Source of the DNA: Gemmatimonadota bacterium
GTDB lineage: Bacteria; Gemmatimonadota; Gemmatimonadetes; Longimicrobiales; Gaopeijiaceae
Assembly: GCA_002718595.1 (NCBI GenBank)
Contig: PBFD01000002.1
Span: 36,748-72,493 of the forward strand
Direction: 5' to 3'
DNA: 35,746 nt
Under the pieces are notes generated by a model, which was not told the DNA's origin, searched no databases, and was given only the letters and a program-made list of their open reading frames with translations. This document shows positions 1 to 19,828 of the stretch, piece after piece. The translations under genes and the position numbers were made by a program. Position 1 is the first letter of the stretch. Every line of letters starts with the position of its first letter.

Positions 1-1667
1 ACGCCAACCACATAAGCGAAACCACTCTCTTCGTTTATCACTACATTATGAGCACTTGCAATGCTACTATAGTGAGCATCGACCTCAAATGTTAGCGGTT
101 CATTGCCTACTTCTCTCAGCCTCGTTAGGTCGAAGATTTGCATTCCGTGAGGCCCAGAACCATCTGCTACAATGAAAGCATGATTCTTATAGACTTTTAT
201 GTCTCTCCAGGAGTTTCCGCGAGCGCCTGTGGTCATGGGGAGGTTGCCAAGATATCGCGGATTAGAAGAATCGGTTACGTCTACGAAAGAAGTGCCATCG
301 TAACGCCCGACCAATGCGTATTCTCTACTTGATGAAGGGTCAGTCCATCCCCAGACATCGTTGAGTTGGACTCCCCTAGTTCCTCCCAAGTCTTCAACCG
401 ATAAAAAGGAGACCATGTCAACCTCATTACAGGTGTATTCCGATGCGGAACCTCCTTCACACCTGACTTCTCCTCCAGTGATTGAAACTAGGCTTTCTGA
501 CTCATTGAAAACTCGTGTTACTTCATCCCAGTGATTTCCAGTTCGTTCGTAAATTGCTACTGTGCCCAGTTGGTAGTCTGCTCCAATAATACCAACTGCT
601 CCAAGATTGCCTTTCACAGCTAACGCGCCTCCGAATTGGTCACCTGAAATCAATTCGCTAGAGCTTAGTTTCCTTGCTTCTACCCAATCTCCAGAGACAG
701 GGTTTTGTGATATGCTGTATATGCGTCCTTGAAAATCTGAAGCTCCAGGGGCACCTAACCATACTTCGCCATCATTAATCTGAATAGCTGCTCCAAATTG
801 AGTGCCAGGATTTCCTTCATCGAAGGCCTTGAGAGTGGAGGACGCATTCCATTCTTTCGATTCTTCTTCATAGTCATAGGTATATGCTATGCCCATACCT
901 TGTTCGTGTGTGGCTGCTCCGACTATCGCTCGTCCATCATGTAGAGCTACCGCTACTCCAAATCCACTGTTGGGGGAAGTACCTGCTCCGCTGAGTTTAG
1001 TTCCTTCTATCCAGTCACCAGTGTTTTGATCAAGCGTGAAAGTGTATACGGATCCGGTTATGTTGTTCTGGCGTGGAGCTCCAATGAGTGCCACTCCATT
1101 TTCAATAGCAAGTGAGAATCCGAAGAGATCGTTCGGCTCAGTGTTACTTCCCATCAGTTTAGCGGATTCACTCCAGAGGTTGGTCTCTTCATCCCTCTCA
1201 AATACATATACGGCTCCACGGGCTTCACTATTGGCTAGAGAACTCATTAGGACGTGATTTTGGTCCGAAGCACTTACCCTCCCAACAAAATCGCCTTCTT
1301 GAGTATCACTCACCTTAATGGCTTGTTGCTCTTCCCATAAGCCGTTTTCATCTTTAGCAAATACATAAATTGTTTCGAGAGTAGTTGCACCAACGAGCAG
1401 GTGTTCTCCAGTGTAAGCGAGAGCCCGTCCGAAGTGATCTCCAACGGTTGAATTGGATGCCTCTAGTCGCTGAGCTTCTGACCATACATTGTTGGCTTCT
1501 TTTCGGTAAATAAAAACGTAACCAGGTGATGATTCGTTTAGGGATTCACCGACAAAAATTTCCGCTTCACCTACTGCCACAGACTGTCCATAGCCCTGTG
1601 CACTGATAGATGAAGGAATAAGTAAACCTGACATCAGTCCTACCCAAAGGATGGTTAATTGTTTCAC
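1..1667 (-). CDS. Secreted FG-GAP / choice-of-anchor B family protein, 3' end outside window
   Basis: The reading frame is open from a GTG at 1667 to the window edge (555 codons), so the C terminus is missing. The GTG start is supported by AGGTGA about 5 nt upstream and by an immediate signal peptide (MKQLTILWVGLMSG..., ending near SISA-Q). About residues 30-390 form roughly six repeats of 55-65 residues with the FG-GAP-like pattern G-D-x-F-G-x-A-(x)n-(L/A)-(L/V)-(V/I)-G-A, each followed by a Y-V-F-x-(R/K) strand and a W-x-E segment, as in a beta-propeller. From about residue 395 the protein matches the choice-of-anchor B domain: two Cys flanking an acidic/small segment, LNDVWGWTDP, a YALVGR-DGTSFVDV block, WRDIKVY, HGMQIFDL, and SAHNVVINEESGFAYVVG at the window edge. 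In this family the far C terminus usually carries a variable sorting or anchor signal, which is not visible here. Function is unknown; an exported, probably surface-associated role is inferred. Confidence 0.85.
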   Translation of the reverse strand, partial: MKQLTILWVGLMSGLLIPSSISAQGYGQSVAVGEAEIFVGESLNESSPGYVFIYRKEANNVWSEAQRLEASNSTVGDHFGRALAYTGEHLLVGATTLETIYVFAKDENGLWEEQQAIKVSDTQEGDFVGRVSASDQNHVLMSSLANSEARGAVYVFERDEETNLWSESAKLMGSNTEPNDLFGFSLAIENGVALIGAPRQNNITGSVYTFTLDQNTGDWIEGTKLSGAGTSPNSGFGVAVALHDGRAIVGAATHEQGMGIAYTYDYEEESKEWNASSTLKAFDEGNPGTQFGAAIQINDGEVWLGAPGASDFQGRIYSISQNPVSGDWVEARKLSSSELISGDQFGGALAVKGNLGAVGIIGADYQLGTVAIYERTGNHWDEVTRVFNESESLVSITGGEVRCEGGSASEYTCNEVDMVSFLSVEDLGGTRGVQLNDVWGWTDPSSSREYALVGRYDGTSFVDVTDSSNPRYLGNLPMTTGARGNSWRDIKVYKNHAFIVADGSGPHGMQIFDLTRLREVGNEPLTFEVDAHYSSIASAHNVVINEESGFAYVVG

Positions 1668-12336: not shown

Positions 12337-14541
12337 TTATTGCTTTTCTTTTGAAAAGTAGGTTTCATACCAATCGAAAATACGACTCCAATGGTCAAGG
12401 AAATCCTCTTGAGTACCAGCACGTCCAGCTCCGTGTCCAGCTCGCATGTAGTTTACCCAGGTCACTTTCTTACCTAAGCGTCGGAGCGCATAATACATTT
12501 CTCTCTGGTTAGTTTCCGGCACATTCCAGTCATCTTCTCCAGATAACATCAGTAGGGGAGTGTCTATTCTGTCTGCAAACATGATTGCAGAATGGGCAAT
12601 GTATTTCTGAGGTTGTTCCCATAGAGTTGCTCCAATTCGATCTTGGCCTTCCTCTGCAGCCCGATAATTTCGAGTGGTGATTTTCTCACTATCTCCTAAA
12701 AAGCTTATTATGTTCACTTTTCCAGAGATATTAATCGCTGCTGCAAAACGGTCGGTTTGGGTTATAAGTAGGTTGGTTGCGTATCCTCCATAGCTTGTGC
12801 CATGAACGCCCAACTTGTGCTCATCAACTAAGCCACGGTCTATCACTGTATTTATAGCTGTTGTCACTCCTTTAACCCAAGCTTCTCCTGGAAATCCTAT
12901 TTCGAGGTCTACAGATGGTCGAAACCCAAACCATCCCTGGCTAGCTAAAAGGTTCATATTCGCATTAAACCCATTGTCAAAAAATGTCTCATAAATTTCG
13001 GCCACTAGGGGATAAGTCTTCTGCGGATCGTAATCGATTGGGTAGTACAGTATGCCATAAAGCTTTTTGCCATCTACATTTAGATAGGAAATAAGCTCGC
13101 TTTTAGTCAGTTTTACGTTCTTGATCCAGGGATTGAGTTCTGTAAGCTGTCTCGGGTTATTGAAGGAATTATCCGAAACCCATACTTCAGGAGGCACATC
13201 ACCGTTGGTTCTGGTATAGACAATTGTGGACGCATCGTCCGATATAGTCCAGTTTCTGTAAAGATTCTGGTCTAGCACAAGATCCTCTGTCGATTGGGTT
13301 TCAATGTTGTAGCGAAGCAACCCACGTTCCCATCGGTCTGAGGCAGAGTAACTCATGTATAAGTAGTTTCCATCGCCTGTCCAAGACTCGATTTCCAAGT
13401 TGGGTCTTTCTTCCTCTTTCTGCTCAAATCCATAGATCAGATCTATATCCCCAGATTGTATATCAAGGACGTGATAGCCTGCCTCAGAACTGAGTAGCAA
13501 GCCGGTGTTCAAGGGATGCCAGCGAACCATCTCGAATTCGTATTCCTTGGAGTCTGATGTTCTAGAAGGAGTCAGATTTATTAAGGTATCTGCCATGAAG
13601 GAACGAAGGAAAATATTTCCATCATCTGAATAAGCAAACGCATCTATTGGATGATTCCATATTGGGTTGATTCTATTTTCACCACTAGAATGAATGTGCT
13701 CATTCTCTAGACTGGAAAGATCTATTTTGAAGATGTCGTATTCAGTTCCTTCGGACCTAATGTAAGAAGTTCTAAGACGGGTCGCCGTCGTGTAGACTAA
13801 GGTGTTTCCGTCTTCGGAAAATTGAGGAGAAACAACTGGTTGTTCAGGTAAAACTTGCTGTACTGAACCATCCGTTAAATCTACTAAACTCAGTATGATT
13901 TCATCACTAGATTTTCTAACAGCATCCCATGCCAGAAAATCGTTGTCTGAGTCCTGGATTACTATGGGGCCATCAGAGAGATCTAGATAAGCTTGGCGAG
14001 TTTCAGCTTCCCAATCTAGAGATCTAAGTCCCACAACTATATTTTTTCCGTTTGGATTCCATTCTAATGGTGAATTAGAAGCCAAAGAAAGTTCACTGTT
14101 TAGGGTAACTTCTTCAATTTGCCCTGTTTTTACATGGTGGACCATTAGTCGGAAGGCCCCATCCGTGTATCTGAAGAATGCCAATTTTGATCCATCAGGG
14201 GACCAACGTAAATTTCTTACAGGTGCTGGGTTGCCTTCAAAAAGCTGGTACAGACTTCCACTTTCCGTATCTATTATCAATATCTCAGATTTATTGGGAG
14301 AGACATAAGTAGGATCTCCATAGCGCCCGTGGTCAACGTTCAGTCGATCCCCTTGGGTTTGCACTGTCAGCGCCACTTTTCCTCCATCTTTGGACATGTC
14401 TTGAATTGAGGGAGTCCTGACATTGAGAGCATCTTCAGGAGTAAATGATCTTTGCTGTGCTACTGAAATAGAGGGAAGAATTGTAAGTAAAAACGTAGGC
14501 ATGTAATTAATGATTCTGAACGAGCGACTGAGCTTTAGCAT
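12337..14541 (-). CDS. Secreted S9 family (prolyl oligopeptidase/DPP-type) peptidase
   Basis: This 734-aa protein has a signal peptide (MLKLSRSFRIINYMPTFLLT..., cleavage near VAQQ). Residues about 40-450 hold WD40-like/TolB-type propeller strands, such as the RNLRWSPDGSKLAFF and SPQFSEDGNTLVYTT repeats. The C-terminal alpha/beta-hydrolase domain has the nucleophile in GTSYGGYA (Ser583), an Asp in GEDDWNVP (about 671) and His in RAGHGAG (about 703). The catalytic triad is therefore intact. A GGAG site precedes the ATG by 7-8 nt. It probably acts in the periplasm or outside the cell on peptides with Pro or small residues. Its neighbours are on opposite strands, so it is a single-gene unit. Confidence 0.92.
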   Translation of the reverse strand: MLKLSRSFRIINYMPTFLLTILPSISVAQQRSFTPEDALNVRTPSIQDMSKDGGKVALTVQTQGDRLNVDHGRYGDPTYVSPNKSEILIIDTESGSLYQLFEGNPAPVRNLRWSPDGSKLAFFRYTDGAFRLMVHHVKTGQIEEVTLNSELSLASNSPLEWNPNGKNIVVGLRSLDWEAETRQAYLDLSDGPIVIQDSDNDFLAWDAVRKSSDEIILSLVDLTDGSVQQVLPEQPVVSPQFSEDGNTLVYTTATRLRTSYIRSEGTEYDIFKIDLSSLENEHIHSSGENRINPIWNHPIDAFAYSDDGNIFLRSFMADTLINLTPSRTSDSKEYEFEMVRWHPLNTGLLLSSEAGYHVLDIQSGDIDLIYGFEQKEEERPNLEIESWTGDGNYLYMSYSASDRWERGLLRYNIETQSTEDLVLDQNLYRNWTISDDASTIVYTRTNGDVPPEVWVSDNSFNNPRQLTELNPWIKNVKLTKSELISYLNVDGKKLYGILYYPIDYDPQKTYPLVAEIYETFFDNGFNANMNLLASQGWFGFRPSVDLEIGFPGEAWVKGVTTAINTVIDRGLVDEHKLGVHGTSYGGYATNLLITQTDRFAAAINISGKVNIISFLGDSEKITTRNYRAAEEGQDRIGATLWEQPQKYIAHSAIMFADRIDTPLLMLSGEDDWNVPETNQREMYYALRRLGKKVTWVNYMRAGHGAGRAGTQEDFLDHWSRIFDWYETYFSKEKQ

Positions 14542-14771
14542 ATCATTTCTCCATGATTCAAGAGATGTCTGAGAGGTGAGCTTTTCTGGTTTACAATGTT
14601 GTGAAGATAAAGTTAGGCAAGTTTATCATACCTGCTAGAGTGAGAATGATTATCAGATGAAAGTACCTCTGGGGGGAGAACTGTAGTTGTCCTCTTGACT
14701 TGTTCATCCCAGAGATGCCAGATTTGAGGTCCGAAAATAAAAGAAGTATGGATTTTGGGAGCAAAAATTAG
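14542..14771. other. Intergenic region between S9 peptidase and the ilv leader
   Basis: These 230 bases hold the 5' regions of two divergent units. GATAAA (14606-14611) and TTTATC (14622-14627) form a 6-bp inverted repeat upstream of the peptidase gene. A TTGACT at 14695-14700 could be a -35 for the ilv leader, but no good -10 lies 16-18 bp downstream, so I do not call a promoter. A seven-codon mini-ORF (ATG 14748, stop TAG 14769-14771) ends directly against the GTG of the ilv leader peptide. Confidence 0.4.
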
Positions 14772-14879
14772 GTGAAAAAGAATACATCAATCTCGTTAAT
14801 TAGAGTGATTATTTACGACGGGCCTCGAGTGGTGAGTCCCGTCGAGAGGCCCGCGCGCGCTCTGTGGGGGGTTACCTGA
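14772..14879 (+). CDS. ilv operon leader peptide (35 aa, Ile/Leu/Val-rich)
   Basis: A 35-codon ORF starts with GTG at 14772 (GGGAG at 14757-14761, 10 nt upstream) and stops with TGA at 14877-14879. Codons 7-14 read ATC TCG TTA ATT AGA and GTG ATT ATT, so six of eight are Ile, Leu or Val. Two more Val codons (GTG GTG) follow at 20-21. The peptide begins MKKNTSISLIRVII. The codon run ends at 14813, four bases before the first attenuator hairpin arm, where a stalled ribosome would mask that arm. Leader peptides like this control branched-chain amino acid operons by ribosome stalling. It was found by inspection; no homology is claimed. Confidence 0.7.
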   Translation: MKKNTSISLIRVIIYDGPRVVSPVERPARALWGVT

Positions 14880-14952
14880 ACACCCTATAGAAAAAATTAA
14901 GAACAAGCGCCGCGGGTCCTCCGGAGAAATCGGGAGGACCCGCTTGGTTTTT
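14817..14952 (+). promoter_or_regulatory. Ribosome-mediated transcription attenuator of the ilvBNCD operon
   Basis: Four pairing segments are visible. Segment 1 (CGGGCCTC, 14819-14826) pairs with segment 2 (GAGGCCCG, 14846-14853); GACGGG at 14817-14822 can alternatively pair with CCCGTC at 14838-14843. Segment 2 (CCCGCG, 14850-14855, extendable on both sides) can instead pair with segment 3 (CGCGGG, 14911-14916). Segment 3 is also the 5' arm of the terminator whose 3' arm is segment 4 (14933-14943). Inferred logic: with charged tRNAs the 1:2 and 3:4 hairpins form and transcription stops. When the ribosome stalls at the Ile/Leu/Val codons it covers segment 1, 2 pairs with 3, and ilvB is transcribed. 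Confidence 0.7.
14912..14952 (+). terminator. Intrinsic terminator (attenuator) upstream of ilvB
   Basis: GCGGGTCCTCC (14912-14922) and GGAGGACCCGC (14933-14943) are perfect 11-bp inverted arms with a 10-nt loop, followed by TTGG and five T (14948-14952). This very stable GC-rich stem with a U tract lies 98 bp before the ilvB start and after the leader-peptide stop, as expected for an attenuator rather than an end-of-operon terminator. Confidence 0.85.
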
Positions 14953-15049
14953 AGGAATGGAGTGATTTGGAAGAAAATAGCAGTATTGCCACAGGCCAGA
15001 GGGATTGTGAATTAGCATGTTTACATCAACAAAGGTATAGGTAAGAATT

Positions 15050-16786
15050 ATGGTTCGTGTGCCTACAGGGGCCGATCTTCTTTGCGATTTGCTACTGGAA
15101 CATGGTGTGGAAGTACTTTTTGGACACCCTGGCGGTGCCATCCTTCCATTCTATGACGCTCTGCATAGAAAACCTGAACTCCGACACATCCTTATGCGAC
15201 ACGAGCAGGCGGCGGCACATGCTGCGGACGGTTATTCGAGAGCGACTGGGAAAACTGGAGTGTGTATAGCGACCAGTGGTCCAGGAGCTACAAATCTTGT
15301 TACTGGTTTGGCTACGGCTATGATGGATGGTGTACCTCTGGTTGCTATAACTGGACAGGTACCACTCCCAGTTCTGGGAACTGATGCCTTTCAAGAGACA
15401 GACATAGTAGGTGTCACTATGCCTGTAACTAAACATGGATTTCAAATAAATCAATTATCAGACATTCCGGATATGCTGGCCGCAGCTTTTTCACTTGCTG
15501 TGGAGGGAAGACCTGGCCCGGTGTTGATAGATTTTCCTAAAGATATCCAAGCGAGTCTGGTTTCCACGGAATTGGTTACTCAATTTCGTGGGTTCTCAGT
15601 GAAACCCAAGGAAAGTGCTGATCTAGTAACCACTCTGGAAAAGGCAGAATCGAACTCTGATTGCGTCCAGGAGATCAGGGTGCTTCTTGAGATGGCGAAA
15701 AGACCTTTACTTATGGTTGGTAGAGGGGCTGTAGAGGCTGGTGTCACCGAACAAATAAAGGATTTTGCAGAGACAATGGATCTTCCGGTCACTACGACAC
15801 TTCTCGGTATAGATGGATTTCCAGCTGAACACAGGCTTTCTCTAGGTCTTCCCGGGATGCATGGGACAGAGAGAGCGAATATGGGAATTCAGAACGCTGA
15901 CTTGGTCATTGGTTTGGGCTGTAGGTTTGACGACAGAGTAATTGGCAAGGTGGACGAATTCGCTCCCAAAGCAAAAGTGGTGGCTTTTGACATAAATCCA
16001 GGTATGCCAGGCAGAACGATAGAGCCAGACGTTTTTGTTCTGGGAGATCTAAGGGACACTCTTCCTAAACTCATAGAAGGAATTTCAAAGCGAGAATACA
16101 AATCGTGGTTCAACGAGTTAAGTGAGTGGAGTAGGGAAGCAGAACCAACTGTAGACTGCTCGCTAAAACCAGGTCCTCTCGGCGGTAGGCAAGCAGTACG
16201 CTATGTAACTCAGAGAGTGAGTGATTGCGATGGGATCGTTTGTACGGATGTGGGCCAACATCAAATGTGGGTTGCTCAAGAATTGCCTAATGTGATGCCA
16301 CGCTCACATTTGACTTCAGGAGGGCTGGGTACCATGGGCTATTCGTTACCAGCAGCAATAGGCGCAGCTGTAGGTTGCCCCGAACGGACTGTTTGGGTCG
16401 TAGCTGGTGACGGAGGATTTCAGATGAATATTCAGGAGCTCGCAACCGTTGCACAGGAGAACATTGCTCTGCGGATAGCGATTATTAACAACCAGTGTCT
16501 AGGGATGGTAAGGCAATGGCAAGAATCCTTCTACGAGCGCAGATATTCTGCGGTAGCACTTTCTGGGCCAGATCTGGTTAAGGTAGCCAGCGCTTACGGT
16601 ATTGAAGGTTATGTGGTGGAGAAAGCGGAAGATTTGAAAGAAATTTTAGATTCTGTCTCTGAGGAAAAGGGTCCTGTGTTGGTGGATTTGAGGGTCGTTG
16701 AAGACGAGAATGTCTATCCTATAGTACCGACAGGAACGGCCCTTCACGACCTCATAAAGGGACCTGCCCTGCCCACTCAAGTCTGA
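15050..16786 (+). CDS. ilvB: Acetolactate synthase large subunit
   Basis: This ThDP- and FAD-dependent enzyme condenses two pyruvates to 2-acetolactate (valine/leucine) or pyruvate plus 2-oxobutyrate to acetohydroxybutyrate (isoleucine). At 578 aa it is full length. The ThDP-activating Glu52 lies in LMRHEQAAAHAADGY, followed by SGPGATNLVTG. The central FAD domain includes MVGRGAVEAG, and the ThDP/Mg motif GDGGFQMNIQEL...NN with QCLGMVRQWQ lies in the last third. The QCLGMVRQWQ and YPIVPTG segments mark a biosynthetic (anabolic) AHAS rather than the catabolic AlsS type. It is the first gene after the attenuator and overlaps ilvN by one base in a four-base pattern (TGATG). Confidence 0.96.
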   Translation: MVRVPTGADLLCDLLLEHGVEVLFGHPGGAILPFYDALHRKPELRHILMRHEQAAAHAADGYSRATGKTGVCIATSGPGATNLVTGLATAMMDGVPLVAITGQVPLPVLGTDAFQETDIVGVTMPVTKHGFQINQLSDIPDMLAAAFSLAVEGRPGPVLIDFPKDIQASLVSTELVTQFRGFSVKPKESADLVTTLEKAESNSDCVQEIRVLLEMAKRPLLMVGRGAVEAGVTEQIKDFAETMDLPVTTTLLGIDGFPAEHRLSLGLPGMHGTERANMGIQNADLVIGLGCRFDDRVIGKVDEFAPKAKVVAFDINPGMPGRTIEPDVFVLGDLRDTLPKLIEGISKREYKSWFNELSEWSREAEPTVDCSLKPGPLGGRQAVRYVTQRVSDCDGIVCTDVGQHQMWVAQELPNVMPRSHLTSGGLGTMGYSLPAAIGAAVGCPERTVWVVAGDGGFQMNIQELATVAQENIALRIAIINNQCLGMVRQWQESFYERRYSAVALSGPDLVKVASAYGIEGYVVEKAEDLKEILDSVSEEKGPVLVDLRVVEDENVYPIVPTGTALHDLIKGPALPTQV

Positions 16787-17034
16787 TGATAAACAAGTAT
16801 ACTTTATCAGTAGAACTTAAGAATGAGGTTGGCGCTCTAGAACGTGTTCTAGGTGTTTTGAGAAGAAGGGCTATAAACGTAGATAGGTTGACCCTCTCTA
16901 AGAAAACCGAGAAGATTTACGAGGTTATTATGAGTGTCACTGATCAAGTGGTCGAGGCTGGATCGGATAGAGTAGTGAAGGAGCTTACAAGTCTTTTTGT
17001 AGTGGTTTCTGCGCAAGAGATCGAAAGGTTTTGA
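16786..17034 (+). CDS. ilvN: Acetolactate synthase small subunit, short single-ACT form
   Basis: This is the regulatory subunit of AHAS. The 82-aa protein consists of one ACT domain: [34 protein letters not shown], then a second beta-alpha-beta half ending SAQEIERF. The usual IlvN/IlvH is about 160-180 aa, with a second C-terminal domain absent here; the length resembles E. coli IlvM (87 aa). The N-x-V/G-A-L segment that binds the feedback amino acid is kept, so activation of IlvB and possibly valine sensing are expected. Its ATG lies within the ilvB stop (TGATG), implying tight coupling and 1:1 production. Confidence 0.9.
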
Positions 17035-17086
17035 TAGAGAATATCTAGAGTTATGTACTAAGGTTAAGAAAAAAGGAAAGAAGATT

Positions 17087-18091
17087 ATGAGTGAAGAGGG
17101 CCTAAAAGCAACTTTTTTTGAAGAGCACGACGCAGATCCTGATCTTCTTCAAGGACGGCGGGTTGCCATCATTGGATTCGGGAGTCAGGGACATGCGCAT
17201 GCCTTAAACCTGAGGGATAGCGGTGTGCAAGTCATGGTAGGGCTCTATGAAGGGAGCAAATCTGCTGAACACGCACGGAGCGAAGGCCTAGAAGTCACAT
17301 CTGTTGCGGCAGCCAGTGAATGGGCGGACACTATAGCGATTCTCATTCCAGACACCGTTCAAACAGAAGTTTACCATGCAGAAATAGAACCTTATTTAAA
17401 AGATGGGGATGCTCTTCTTTTCGCTCACGGCTTTAACGTTCATTATGACGAGATTAAGCCTCCAGAGACTGTTGATACGATTCTCGTAGCACCCAAATCT
17501 CCAGGAAAAAAAGTGAGAGAACAATATCAGGACGGCAGAGGTGTTCCTGCTTTGATAGGGGTACACCATGATGCGAGTGGAAAAGCTCTAGAATTTACGT
17601 TGGCCTATGCGAATGCCCTCGGATGTACTAGGGCTGGCGTCCTGCAAACAACGTTTGCCGATGAGACTGAGACTGATCTGTTTGGAGAACAGGCTGTCTT
17701 ATGTGGTGGCCTAAGTGAGTTGGTTAAGGCTGGATTCGAAACTCTGGTAGATGCGGGGTACGATCCCGAACTTGCTTATTTCGAGTGCCTTCATGAGATG
17801 AAACTTATAGTTGATTTAGCCTACGCTCGTGGACTTTCAGGAATGAGGGCTGAAGTAAGCGATACAGCAGAGTATGGTGATTATGTCAGTGGTAACCGTG
17901 TGATCGGAGAAGCCGTTAGATCGGAGATGCAAGAAATCTTGAAAGATGTTCAATCTGGCGCTTTTGCTCGTCAATGGATTGCAGAAGCCAAAACGGGCGG
18001 AAAGAATTTTGAGAGAAAGAGGGAAGAAGAAAAACATCACGGTATAGAATCAGTAGGTGTCAAACTACGCTCTCGTATGTCTTGGGTATGA
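17087..18091 (+). CDS. ilvC: Ketol-acid reductoisomerase, class I
   Basis: This NAD(P)H- and Mg-dependent enzyme isomerises and reduces acetolactate and acetohydroxybutyrate to the dihydroxy acids. The 334-aa length fits class I. The Rossmann motif is [17 protein letters not shown], and the cofactor loop reads GLYEGSKS, with the two Ser kept but Tyr where Arg is common. FAHGFNVHY holds the catalytic His, and [14 protein letters not shown] holds the active-site Lys but deviates from the common [26 protein letters not shown] holds the Mg-binding Asp and Glu, [17 protein letters not shown] two further Glu, and SDTAEYGD the Ser. The enzyme should be active; the loop changes may alter cofactor preference. 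It lies 52 bp after ilvN. Confidence 0.95.
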
Positions 18092-18145
18092 TCCTAAAGA
18101 GTAGAATTTCATTCTCATTTGTCGTTTATATCGGAGGATGGTAGG

Positions 18146-19828
18146 ATGAGTGAGCTTCCAAAGAAACTTCCTCTGATTAGCCATCAATTAGTCTTAGGAA
18201 GAGATAGAGCTGCGGCTCGATCTATGTTGCGAGCAGTGGGGCTTGAAGATGAGGATTTTGGCAGACCGCTTATTGGTGTCGCGAATACCTGGACAGACAC
18301 TACTCCTTGTAATAGTCATCTTAGAGAGCTGGGGCAGTGGGTCAAAGAGGGTATCAGAGAGGCTGGGGGAGTGCCCCTCGAGTTCAATACCATTGCGGTT
18401 TCTGATGGTATAACGATGGGTACTTCTGGCATGACCACTTCGCTTATTAGCAGAGAAGTTGTCGCAGACTCGATTGAATTAGTGAGCAGAGGTTATTTTT
18501 TCGATGGACTGGTGACTCTCTCAGGATGTGATAAGACCATTCCTGGCACTGTCATGGGGATGGCCAGGCTCAATCGCCCGTCCCTGATGCTCTATGGAGG
18601 GTCAATTCAACCTGGAAAATACAAAGATCGGGACGTTACCATACAGGACGTATTTGAGGGGATAGGGGCGTGTGCCGCCGGCCGGATAACAGAGGACGAA
18701 CTTGATGAATTGGAGCGTGTAGCTTGTCCTGGGCCAGGATCGTGCGGAGGTCAGTTCACAGCAAACACTATGGCCACAGTCTTTGAAGCTATGGGGGTTT
18801 CGGCCATGGGTAGCGGGTCTGTTCCAGCAGTGGACACAGATAAGGAGAAAGTAGCCCGTGAAAGTGGCAAATTGGTCGTAGATTTAGTCGAAAGAGGACT
18901 AAAAATAAGGGATGTGATGACTCGTGAGAGTTTCGAAAATGGTATTGCAGCTGCAGTGGCTACTGGAGGCTCGACTAATTCGGTACTACATCTTTTGGCT
19001 TTGGCCCACGAGAGTCAGGTAGAACTGACCATAGAAGATTTTGACCTGATCAGTAAGAGGACACCATTAATTGCTGACCTGAAGCCTGGTGGGCGATTCG
19101 TCGCAACTGATTTGCATCATGCAGGTGGAGTTGCATTGGTGTTAAAAGAGCTTTTGGAAGGTGGTCTTCTACATGGGGATGCTATTACGGTTACTGGAAG
19201 AACTCTGAGGCAGGAAGTGGAAAATGCTGAGGAGGCCGAAGGACAAGAAGTAGTAAAAACTTTGTCTGCACCGATCAAAGACCAGGGTGGCCTAGTAATA
19301 CTAAAGGGCAATTTAGCTCCAGATGGCTGTGTCCTGAAAATAGCTGGACATGAAAGGATGTTTCACAAAGGTCCAGCGCGTGTTTTTGACGGAGAAGAAG
19401 AAGCTTTTCAAGCGGTCCAGACTGGATCGATAAAAAAGGGTGACGTGGTGGTGATAAGAGGTGAAGGTCCCTGTGGAGGGCCTGGAATGAGAGAAATGTT
19501 GGGAGTCACTGCGGCTATTGCAGGGGCTGGGTTGGGTGAATCAGTAGGGTTGCTGACTGATGGTCGTTTTTCTGGTGCGACTCATGGCTTGATGGCTGGT
19601 CACGTCGCACCTGAAGCTGTAAGAGGGGGACCAATAGCTGGGATTAGAGACGGGGATGAGATAATCTTCGATATAAAAGCTAGGACCTTGTCGGTAGATA
19701 TTCCTGAAGATGAATTAACCAGACGGGTATCAGACTGGAGTCTACCCCCAAAAGAAGTAGCTTCTGGAGTGATGACAAAATATGCTGCGCTGGTTTCCTC
19801 TGCCGCTCAAGGAGCTACAACCAGTTGA
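18146..19828 (+). CDS. ilvD: Dihydroxy-acid dehydratase
   Basis: This Fe-S enzyme dehydrates 2,3-dihydroxy-isovalerate and -methylvalerate to the 2-keto acids of valine/leucine and isoleucine. ATG 18146 is preferred over an upstream TTG (18119), because GGAGG lies 8 nt before it and the family N terminus is short (560 aa). Cluster cysteines are in [14 protein letters not shown] and [16 protein letters not shown]. The [12 protein letters not shown] and [11 protein letters not shown] active-site blocks are intact. Three cluster Cys are typical of the [2Fe-2S]/[4Fe-4S] IlvD family; cluster type cannot be decided here. It ends 11 bp from the leuD stop, in convergent orientation, with no obvious bidirectional terminator. 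Confidence 0.96.

Follow-up and report, generated by a model that had tools for sequence, protein, structure and literature searches.

A predicted leader-peptide attenuator before ilvBNCD in a Gemmatimonadota bacterium and its relatives across the phylum

The ilvBNCD genes of this Gemmatimonadota bacterium (host genome of 2.0 Mb) are very probably preceded by a ribosome-mediated transcription attenuator. In the window, i.e., the whole stretch of 35,746 nucleotides that was analysed, ilvB-ilvN-ilvC-ilvD are encoded on the forward strand (15050-19828) and face leuD-leuC-leuB-leuA on the reverse strand. On its 5' side, ilvB is flanked by a divergent gene (12337-14541). Positions 14542-15049 are thus the 5' region of ilvB, and the terminator found there, between a short leader ORF and ilvB, does not serve the upstream gene. 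A ribosome-stalling attenuator had been proposed at this place from the sequence of the window alone (hereafter the original prediction). Its core, i.e., a ribosome-stalling attenuator for ilvB, was upheld by the ORF, its codons and the covariation, whereas a conserved four-segment layout and an additional mini-ORF were not. The features of the locus are given in Table 1.

Table 1. Features of the ilvB 5' region and of the ilvBNCD genes, in positions of the window.
Feature	Position	Strand	Support
Probable promoter region, TTGACT -35-like, block CTCTTGACTTG..ATCCC...GATGCCA.ATTT	14695..14725	+	Block conserved in three congeners
GGGAG, Shine-Dalgarno-like, of the leader ORF	14756..14761	+	TTGGGAG invariant in three congeners, 10 nt before GTG
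Leader ORF, 35 codons, GTG start	14772..14879	+	Homologous leaders in G001, G002 and g35
P1 hairpin, 14816-14822 with 14838-14844 and 14824-14827 with 14833-14836	14816..14844	+	Inside leader ORF; covariation
Segment 2, GAGAG-type, antiterminator 5' arm, within leader ORF	14844..14860	+	CGAGAG invariant in first six leaders; pairs with terminator 5' arm
Small hairpin with leader stop codon, in antiterminator loop	14861..14891	+	Predicted in 6/6 ilvB leaders
Segment 3, antiterminator 3' arm, overlapping terminator 5' arm 14912-14922	14907..14922	+	Folding and covariation
Intrinsic terminator, 11-bp stem 14912-14922 / 14933-14943, then TTGGTTTTT	14912..14952	+	Stem kept in relatives
ilvB, acetolactate synthase large subunit	15050..16786	+	TIGR00118 above cut-off
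ilvN, acetolactate synthase small subunit, ACT domain	16786..17034	+	PF01842 and PF22629 above cut-off
ilvC, ketol-acid reductoisomerase	17087..18091	+	TIGR00465 above cut-off
ilvD, dihydroxy-acid dehydratase	18119..19828	+	TIGR00110 above cut-off

The leader ORF (GTG at 14772, TGA at 14877-14879) would encode the peptide VKKNTSISLIRVIIYDGPRVVSPVERPARALWGVT. As originally predicted, it has 35 codons, carries six Ile, Leu or Val (I/L/V) codons among codons 7-14 and continues through segments 1 and 2. The six are codons 7, 9, 10 and 12-14 (codons 7-14 read I S L I R V I I), and a further Val-Val pair (codons 20-21) lies inside the P1 loop. Six such codons out of eight have a binomial probability of 0.003 for one such stretch against the local background. 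Over the whole part of the leader preceding segment 2 the count is 9 of 23 (p = 0.07), a modest bias; the case for an attenuator leans on the relatives. Translation of the leader is predicted from its start codon and ribosome-binding site (GTG and TTGGGAG), both kept in three congeners. The seven-codon mini-ORF that abuts the leader (ATG at 14748) overlaps this conserved TTGGGAG. Both congeners have TTG in place of its start, with no stop, and we rejected it as a meaningful element. Further upstream, the TTGACTTG block at 14695 is a conserved stretch of the ilvB 5' region and probably contains the promoter. Its -10 box is not clear, and TTGAC is also found upstream of the g35 leaders and of many leuA leaders.

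The leader region folds far more stably than dinucleotide shuffles (4.9 s.d. below their mean, with none of 200 shuffles as stable), in agreement with the structured leader that had been proposed, and the 11-bp terminator stem with its T tract is present as described. The proposed 2:3 helix is possible between CCCGCG (14850-14855) and CGCGGG (14911-14916), one of two close registers available in the window. GGGCCTC (14820-14826) can pair with GAGGCCC (14846-14852) to form the 1:2 helix as an alternative fold, but this helix does not appear to be a conserved feature. The hairpin that is conserved is P1 (CGACGGG.CTCG/TGAG.CCCGTCG), which uses the same 5' arm with a different 3' partner. Across 31 leaders the 1:2 pairing is weak and variable (mean z of -1.0; z of -0.55 in the window; strong in G002 and in part of g35). 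We rejected it as a general feature, and a conserved four-segment switch is not supported. In the window, the antiterminator is the first structure predicted to arise if a transcript is not translated.

The elements of the leader recur in close and more distant relatives. The phylum assignment follows from G147, a genome of the same order, whose IlvB shows no difference from that of a MAG labelled Gemmatimonadetes (L082) over the length compared. In the congeners G002 and G001, whose IlvB proteins are about 80% identical to that of the window, the leaders are VDKSTVISMVVMIMGGGSRVTSPAERDRACVFWGVA and VDKSTVMSVIKVIIFGGARVSSVAEIGPAYALRGVA, respectively. Alignment of the congeners shows conservation of the promoter block, Shine-Dalgarno sequence, leader, P1 and terminator. 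The stretch from the terminator to ilvB is poorly conserved and provides an internal negative control. A second genus (g35), with IlvB 57% identical, keeps the leader before ilvB (33 codons, e.g., LVSSLVLIVLLTLSGLGLILGLRRERAVRFGHD), and there the terminator lies directly 5' of ilvB. The genomes of g35 (L137, L159, L160, L161) carry two attenuators that differ from each other, at ilvB and at leuA, and the leuA leaders end in EGAP(S/C)..LTG. At one locus (L117, in G120), the frame of the ilvB that follows the leader shifts partway, probably because of an assembly error in this MAG.

Covariation was assessed on an alignment of six ilvB leaders made without structural information and trimmed to start at P1 (in an untrimmed MAFFT alignment of whole leaders P1 was misaligned, which trimming at P1 cured). 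With their ends set at P1 and before arm 4 of the terminator, all six leaders fold into the same P1 and antiterminator. The latter starts at the invariant CGAGAG and pairs with the 5' arm of the terminator; the stop-codon hairpin lies in its loop. In the structure-free alignment both sides have changed in ten pairs, compared with 4.8 in shuffles (0/500) and at most two in slid registers. The share of paired cells is 92.9%, compared with 33-48% in slid registers. Five of the 11 pairs of P1 have such changes in this alignment, and all 11 do in an alignment of 33 sequences that was fitted to the model and in which pair counts are inflated. The original prediction held that segments 2 and 3 should show compensatory changes and that relatives keeping the hairpins should also keep the leader ORF and its codon run; both are found. 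Covariation thus supports an antiterminator that is exclusive with the terminator. It is a better test than duplex energies: owing to the GC-rich segment 2, only some of the leaders stand out from mononucleotide shuffles by that measure (the antiterminator of G002 taken alone is no better than shuffles, p about 0.12).

To delimit the family, covariance models of six (R1) and 14 (R2) leaders were run on 395 Gemmatimonadota genomes. At E < 0.001, R2 gave 27 matches: 25 before ilvB or leuA and two before a homocysteine-synthase gene (TIGR01326). Fourteen of these are outside the training set, 12 directly before leuA and the same two before the homocysteine-synthase gene. Adding leaders from the order search and from inspection to the model matches gives a total of 33 (nine before ilvB, 22 before leuA and two of Met/Cys type), and relatives were found in 27 Gemmatimonadota genomes. 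The layout had been suspected to be lineage-specific; it is not confined to the genus and recurs over the phylum, mostly before leuA. Although leuA is the commoner site, the facing leuABCD unit of the window lacks a leader, as originally predicted. The ilvB flanks of 80 named loci from many phyla gave no match to R2. Weak matches (L122-L125, L152, L157, L162-L164, L166, L167) were rejected, being inside genes, near unrelated genes or devoid of a cognate leader.

These data bear on one alternative, i.e., an ordinary terminator with hairpins that regulates nothing and a leader ORF present by chance. Short ORFs are common and the codon enrichment in the window is modest, as this alternative would have it, but the upstream gene is divergent, which leaves nothing to terminate. 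In addition, different genera share the structure, which covaries, and the ORF, and both consistently precede leuA or ilvB. We regard such a chance arrangement as extremely unlikely.

In several genomes outside the genus (e.g., G073, G149, G147, G141, G140, G153), a leader before leuA is followed by ilvB within about 3-7 kb, so that a single leader probably heads a joint leu-ilv operon. The genus of the window has a leader on ilvB and none on leuA, and g35 has leaders at both. We infer that the ilvB leader arose by splitting of the joint operon or by duplication of the leader.

Some leaders depart from the branched-chain type. Two of them (L149 and L150, in G420 and G162, from another family of the class; MNTFALNLMCRISPCGSPQGETDRRVRARCTSA) have Met and Cys codons replacing I/L/V and show the same layout before a gene for O-acetylhomoserine aminocarboxypropyltransferase/homocysteine synthase; judging from these codons and this context, they are likely to be Met/Cys attenuators on the same chassis. 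A terminator-bearing leader with a Cys-rich ORF (MSFQVQQAMCCRSVCCGRSVESAHGGRAVFTIPCPC) precedes a porin-like gene in another genome (L165, in G407; 1501-1654, reverse strand) and is possibly cysteine-responsive. One leuA leader ORF (L158, in G072; MTTILLSVFLSILLEQAR) is shorter than the rest of the family and ends before P1, and may offer a natural test of the through-translation layout. As for other amino acids, no Trp-rich leader ORF was found in the 330 nt upstream of trpE in five genomes. Five genomes of two genera (G000, G001, G002, G089, G093) gave no hisG (TIGR00070), with 13 of 14 controls positive; histidine auxotrophy or a divergent hisG are possible.

The position of the codons relative to segment 2 gives information on the mechanism. 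In the 32 leaders with an assigned ORF, the latter is 29-38 codons long. The distance from its stop to the terminator arm is 17-37 nt except in two leaders, where the script apparently mis-called the arm. In the window and nearly all of these relatives the stop is beyond segment 2. Among branched-chain leaders, I/L/V make up 47% of the codons before segment 2 and 15% of those after it, with a background of 23%. Counted from segment 2, these codons fill the stretch from -19 to -4, and from 0 to +2 their share is 0-4%. In the leuA matches outside the training set, I/L/V account for 42.5% of the codons that precede the modelled region, compared with a background of 23.3% (p = 3e-9), a figure free of model bias. 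We then masked the RNA covered by a ribosome (from -17 to +14 nt of the A-site, an assumed footprint size). The modelled antiterminator is available with the ribosome at codons up to -5 and is cut from -4/-3 on. The run of regulatory codons thus stops at the point from which a stalled ribosome would obstruct segment 2. In the window, a mask at codons 13-14 leaves an antiterminator probability of 0.95-0.98 even in the full transcript, and a mask at codons 23-29 brings it to 0.

We propose the following sequence of events, in which promoter use, leader translation, kinetic order and amino-acid response are all predicted. RNA polymerase would start near 14700-14740 and a ribosome would start the leader at 14772. 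With scarce charged Ile, Leu or Val tRNAs, it would stall at codons 7-14, or at the Val pair within P1, leaving segment 2 free to pair with segment 3; this antiterminator would preclude the terminator, and the operon would be transcribed. With plentiful tRNAs, the ribosome would pass P1 and segment 2 while segments 3 and 4 are being made; its presence over segment 2 would block the antiterminator, the terminator would form and transcription would stop. As the reading frame of the leader extends across segment 2, it is probably the moving ribosome itself that blocks the antiterminator. On balance, and with moderate confidence, we take this to be the standard attenuator of Gemmatimonadota: a leader of 29-38 codons running through the hairpin and the antiterminator arm, where the ribosome, and not a 1:2 hairpin, acts as the anti-antiterminator, and a chassis refitted by its codons (Ile/Leu/Val at leuA or ilvB, Met/Cys at the homocysteine-synthase gene).

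A leader operated by the ribosome could also act mainly through translation or through polymerase pausing or Rho instead of intrinsic termination. The 97 nt between terminator and ilvB in the window, the interrupted T tract (TTGGTTTTT) and the potential of P1 to be a pause hairpin would fit such a scheme. It is nevertheless very unlikely, given that most relatives have the arrangement of stem and T tract, often directly before the gene, and that segment 3 is shared by antiterminator and terminator and not with the Shine-Dalgarno sequence of ilvB. The leader could instead sense tRNA or a ligand, with a terminator and an incidental short ORF. T-boxes and riboswitches control ilv and leu genes elsewhere. 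For instance, ppGpp riboswitches are mentioned before ilvB (PMC10272879). Against a sensor of this kind, which we consider very unlikely, no Rfam family matched the window leader at gathering score (at E up to 10 there were only chance-level matches to unrelated families, the best with E of 1.1, and none to T-boxes), and searches of seven relatives gave nothing of note. Furthermore, an ORF of near-constant length with I/L/V codons is kept in 30 of 31 branched-chain leaders.

Transcription attenuation by a ribosome on a cognate-codon leader is thus the reading that we retain, and its principle is known. Like the enterobacterial trpL, ilvL, ivbL and leuL, the leaders described here combine an ORF with cognate codons, exclusive antiterminator and terminator, and a biosynthetic operon downstream. 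In the classical enterobacterial attenuators, the leader does not usually extend beyond the start of segment 2, which is protected by the 1:2 hairpin. Here, in contrast, the 1:2 pairing does not appear to be conserved and the ORF passes the hairpin and segment 2 to stop in the antiterminator loop; a trp-type ending before or at segment 2 is not what is found in the window or nearly all its relatives. The ilvB-II / ilvBNC attenuator of Corynebacterium (PMC10272879, PMC11857589) is similar in that an I/L/V-rich uORF covers most of a P1 stem and is followed by a terminator and ilvB, with an antiterminator overlapping the base of the terminator. Yet its uORF usually has 15-17 codons (range 10-24) and is described only in Corynebacterium (PMC10272879), whereas leaders of 29-38 codons are outside this range, and no sequence relationship was shown. 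The ilvB-OMG motif, compared by description only, is likewise located before ilvB, in several phyla; its uORF is BCAA-rich and attenuation has been proposed, but its peptides are described as highly variable in length and also Thr-rich (PMC10272879). In Actinobacteria, ilvB, leuA and leuS leaders have short ORFs with runs of I/V/L codons, which at ilvB overlap the terminator; the authors did not decide how ilvB is regulated (Seliverstov 2005, PMC1262725). The leuA gene of this phylum carries a LEU pseudoknot element, unlike the leaders here (PMC1262725).

A survey of 2010 reported leader-peptide attenuators as known only in Proteobacteria and Actinobacteria and added Firmicutes (PMC2965389). 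We found no description in Gemmatimonadota in the open-access literature. With ilvB-OMG compared by description only, the Gemmatimonadota family and its layout are without a match in Rfam or in the literature found. The results extend leader-peptide attenuators to Gemmatimonadota with evidence from covariation and codons, and provide an RNA family, missing from Rfam, with which leuA and ilvB operons of largely uncultured bacteria can be annotated. Through-translation differs from the classical model in one prediction: a stop codon introduced immediately upstream of segment 2 should raise read-through. Given the codon profile of the family, in which I/L/V codons end where a stalled ribosome would reach segment 2, shifting the codons a few positions would be a direct test of the mechanism.
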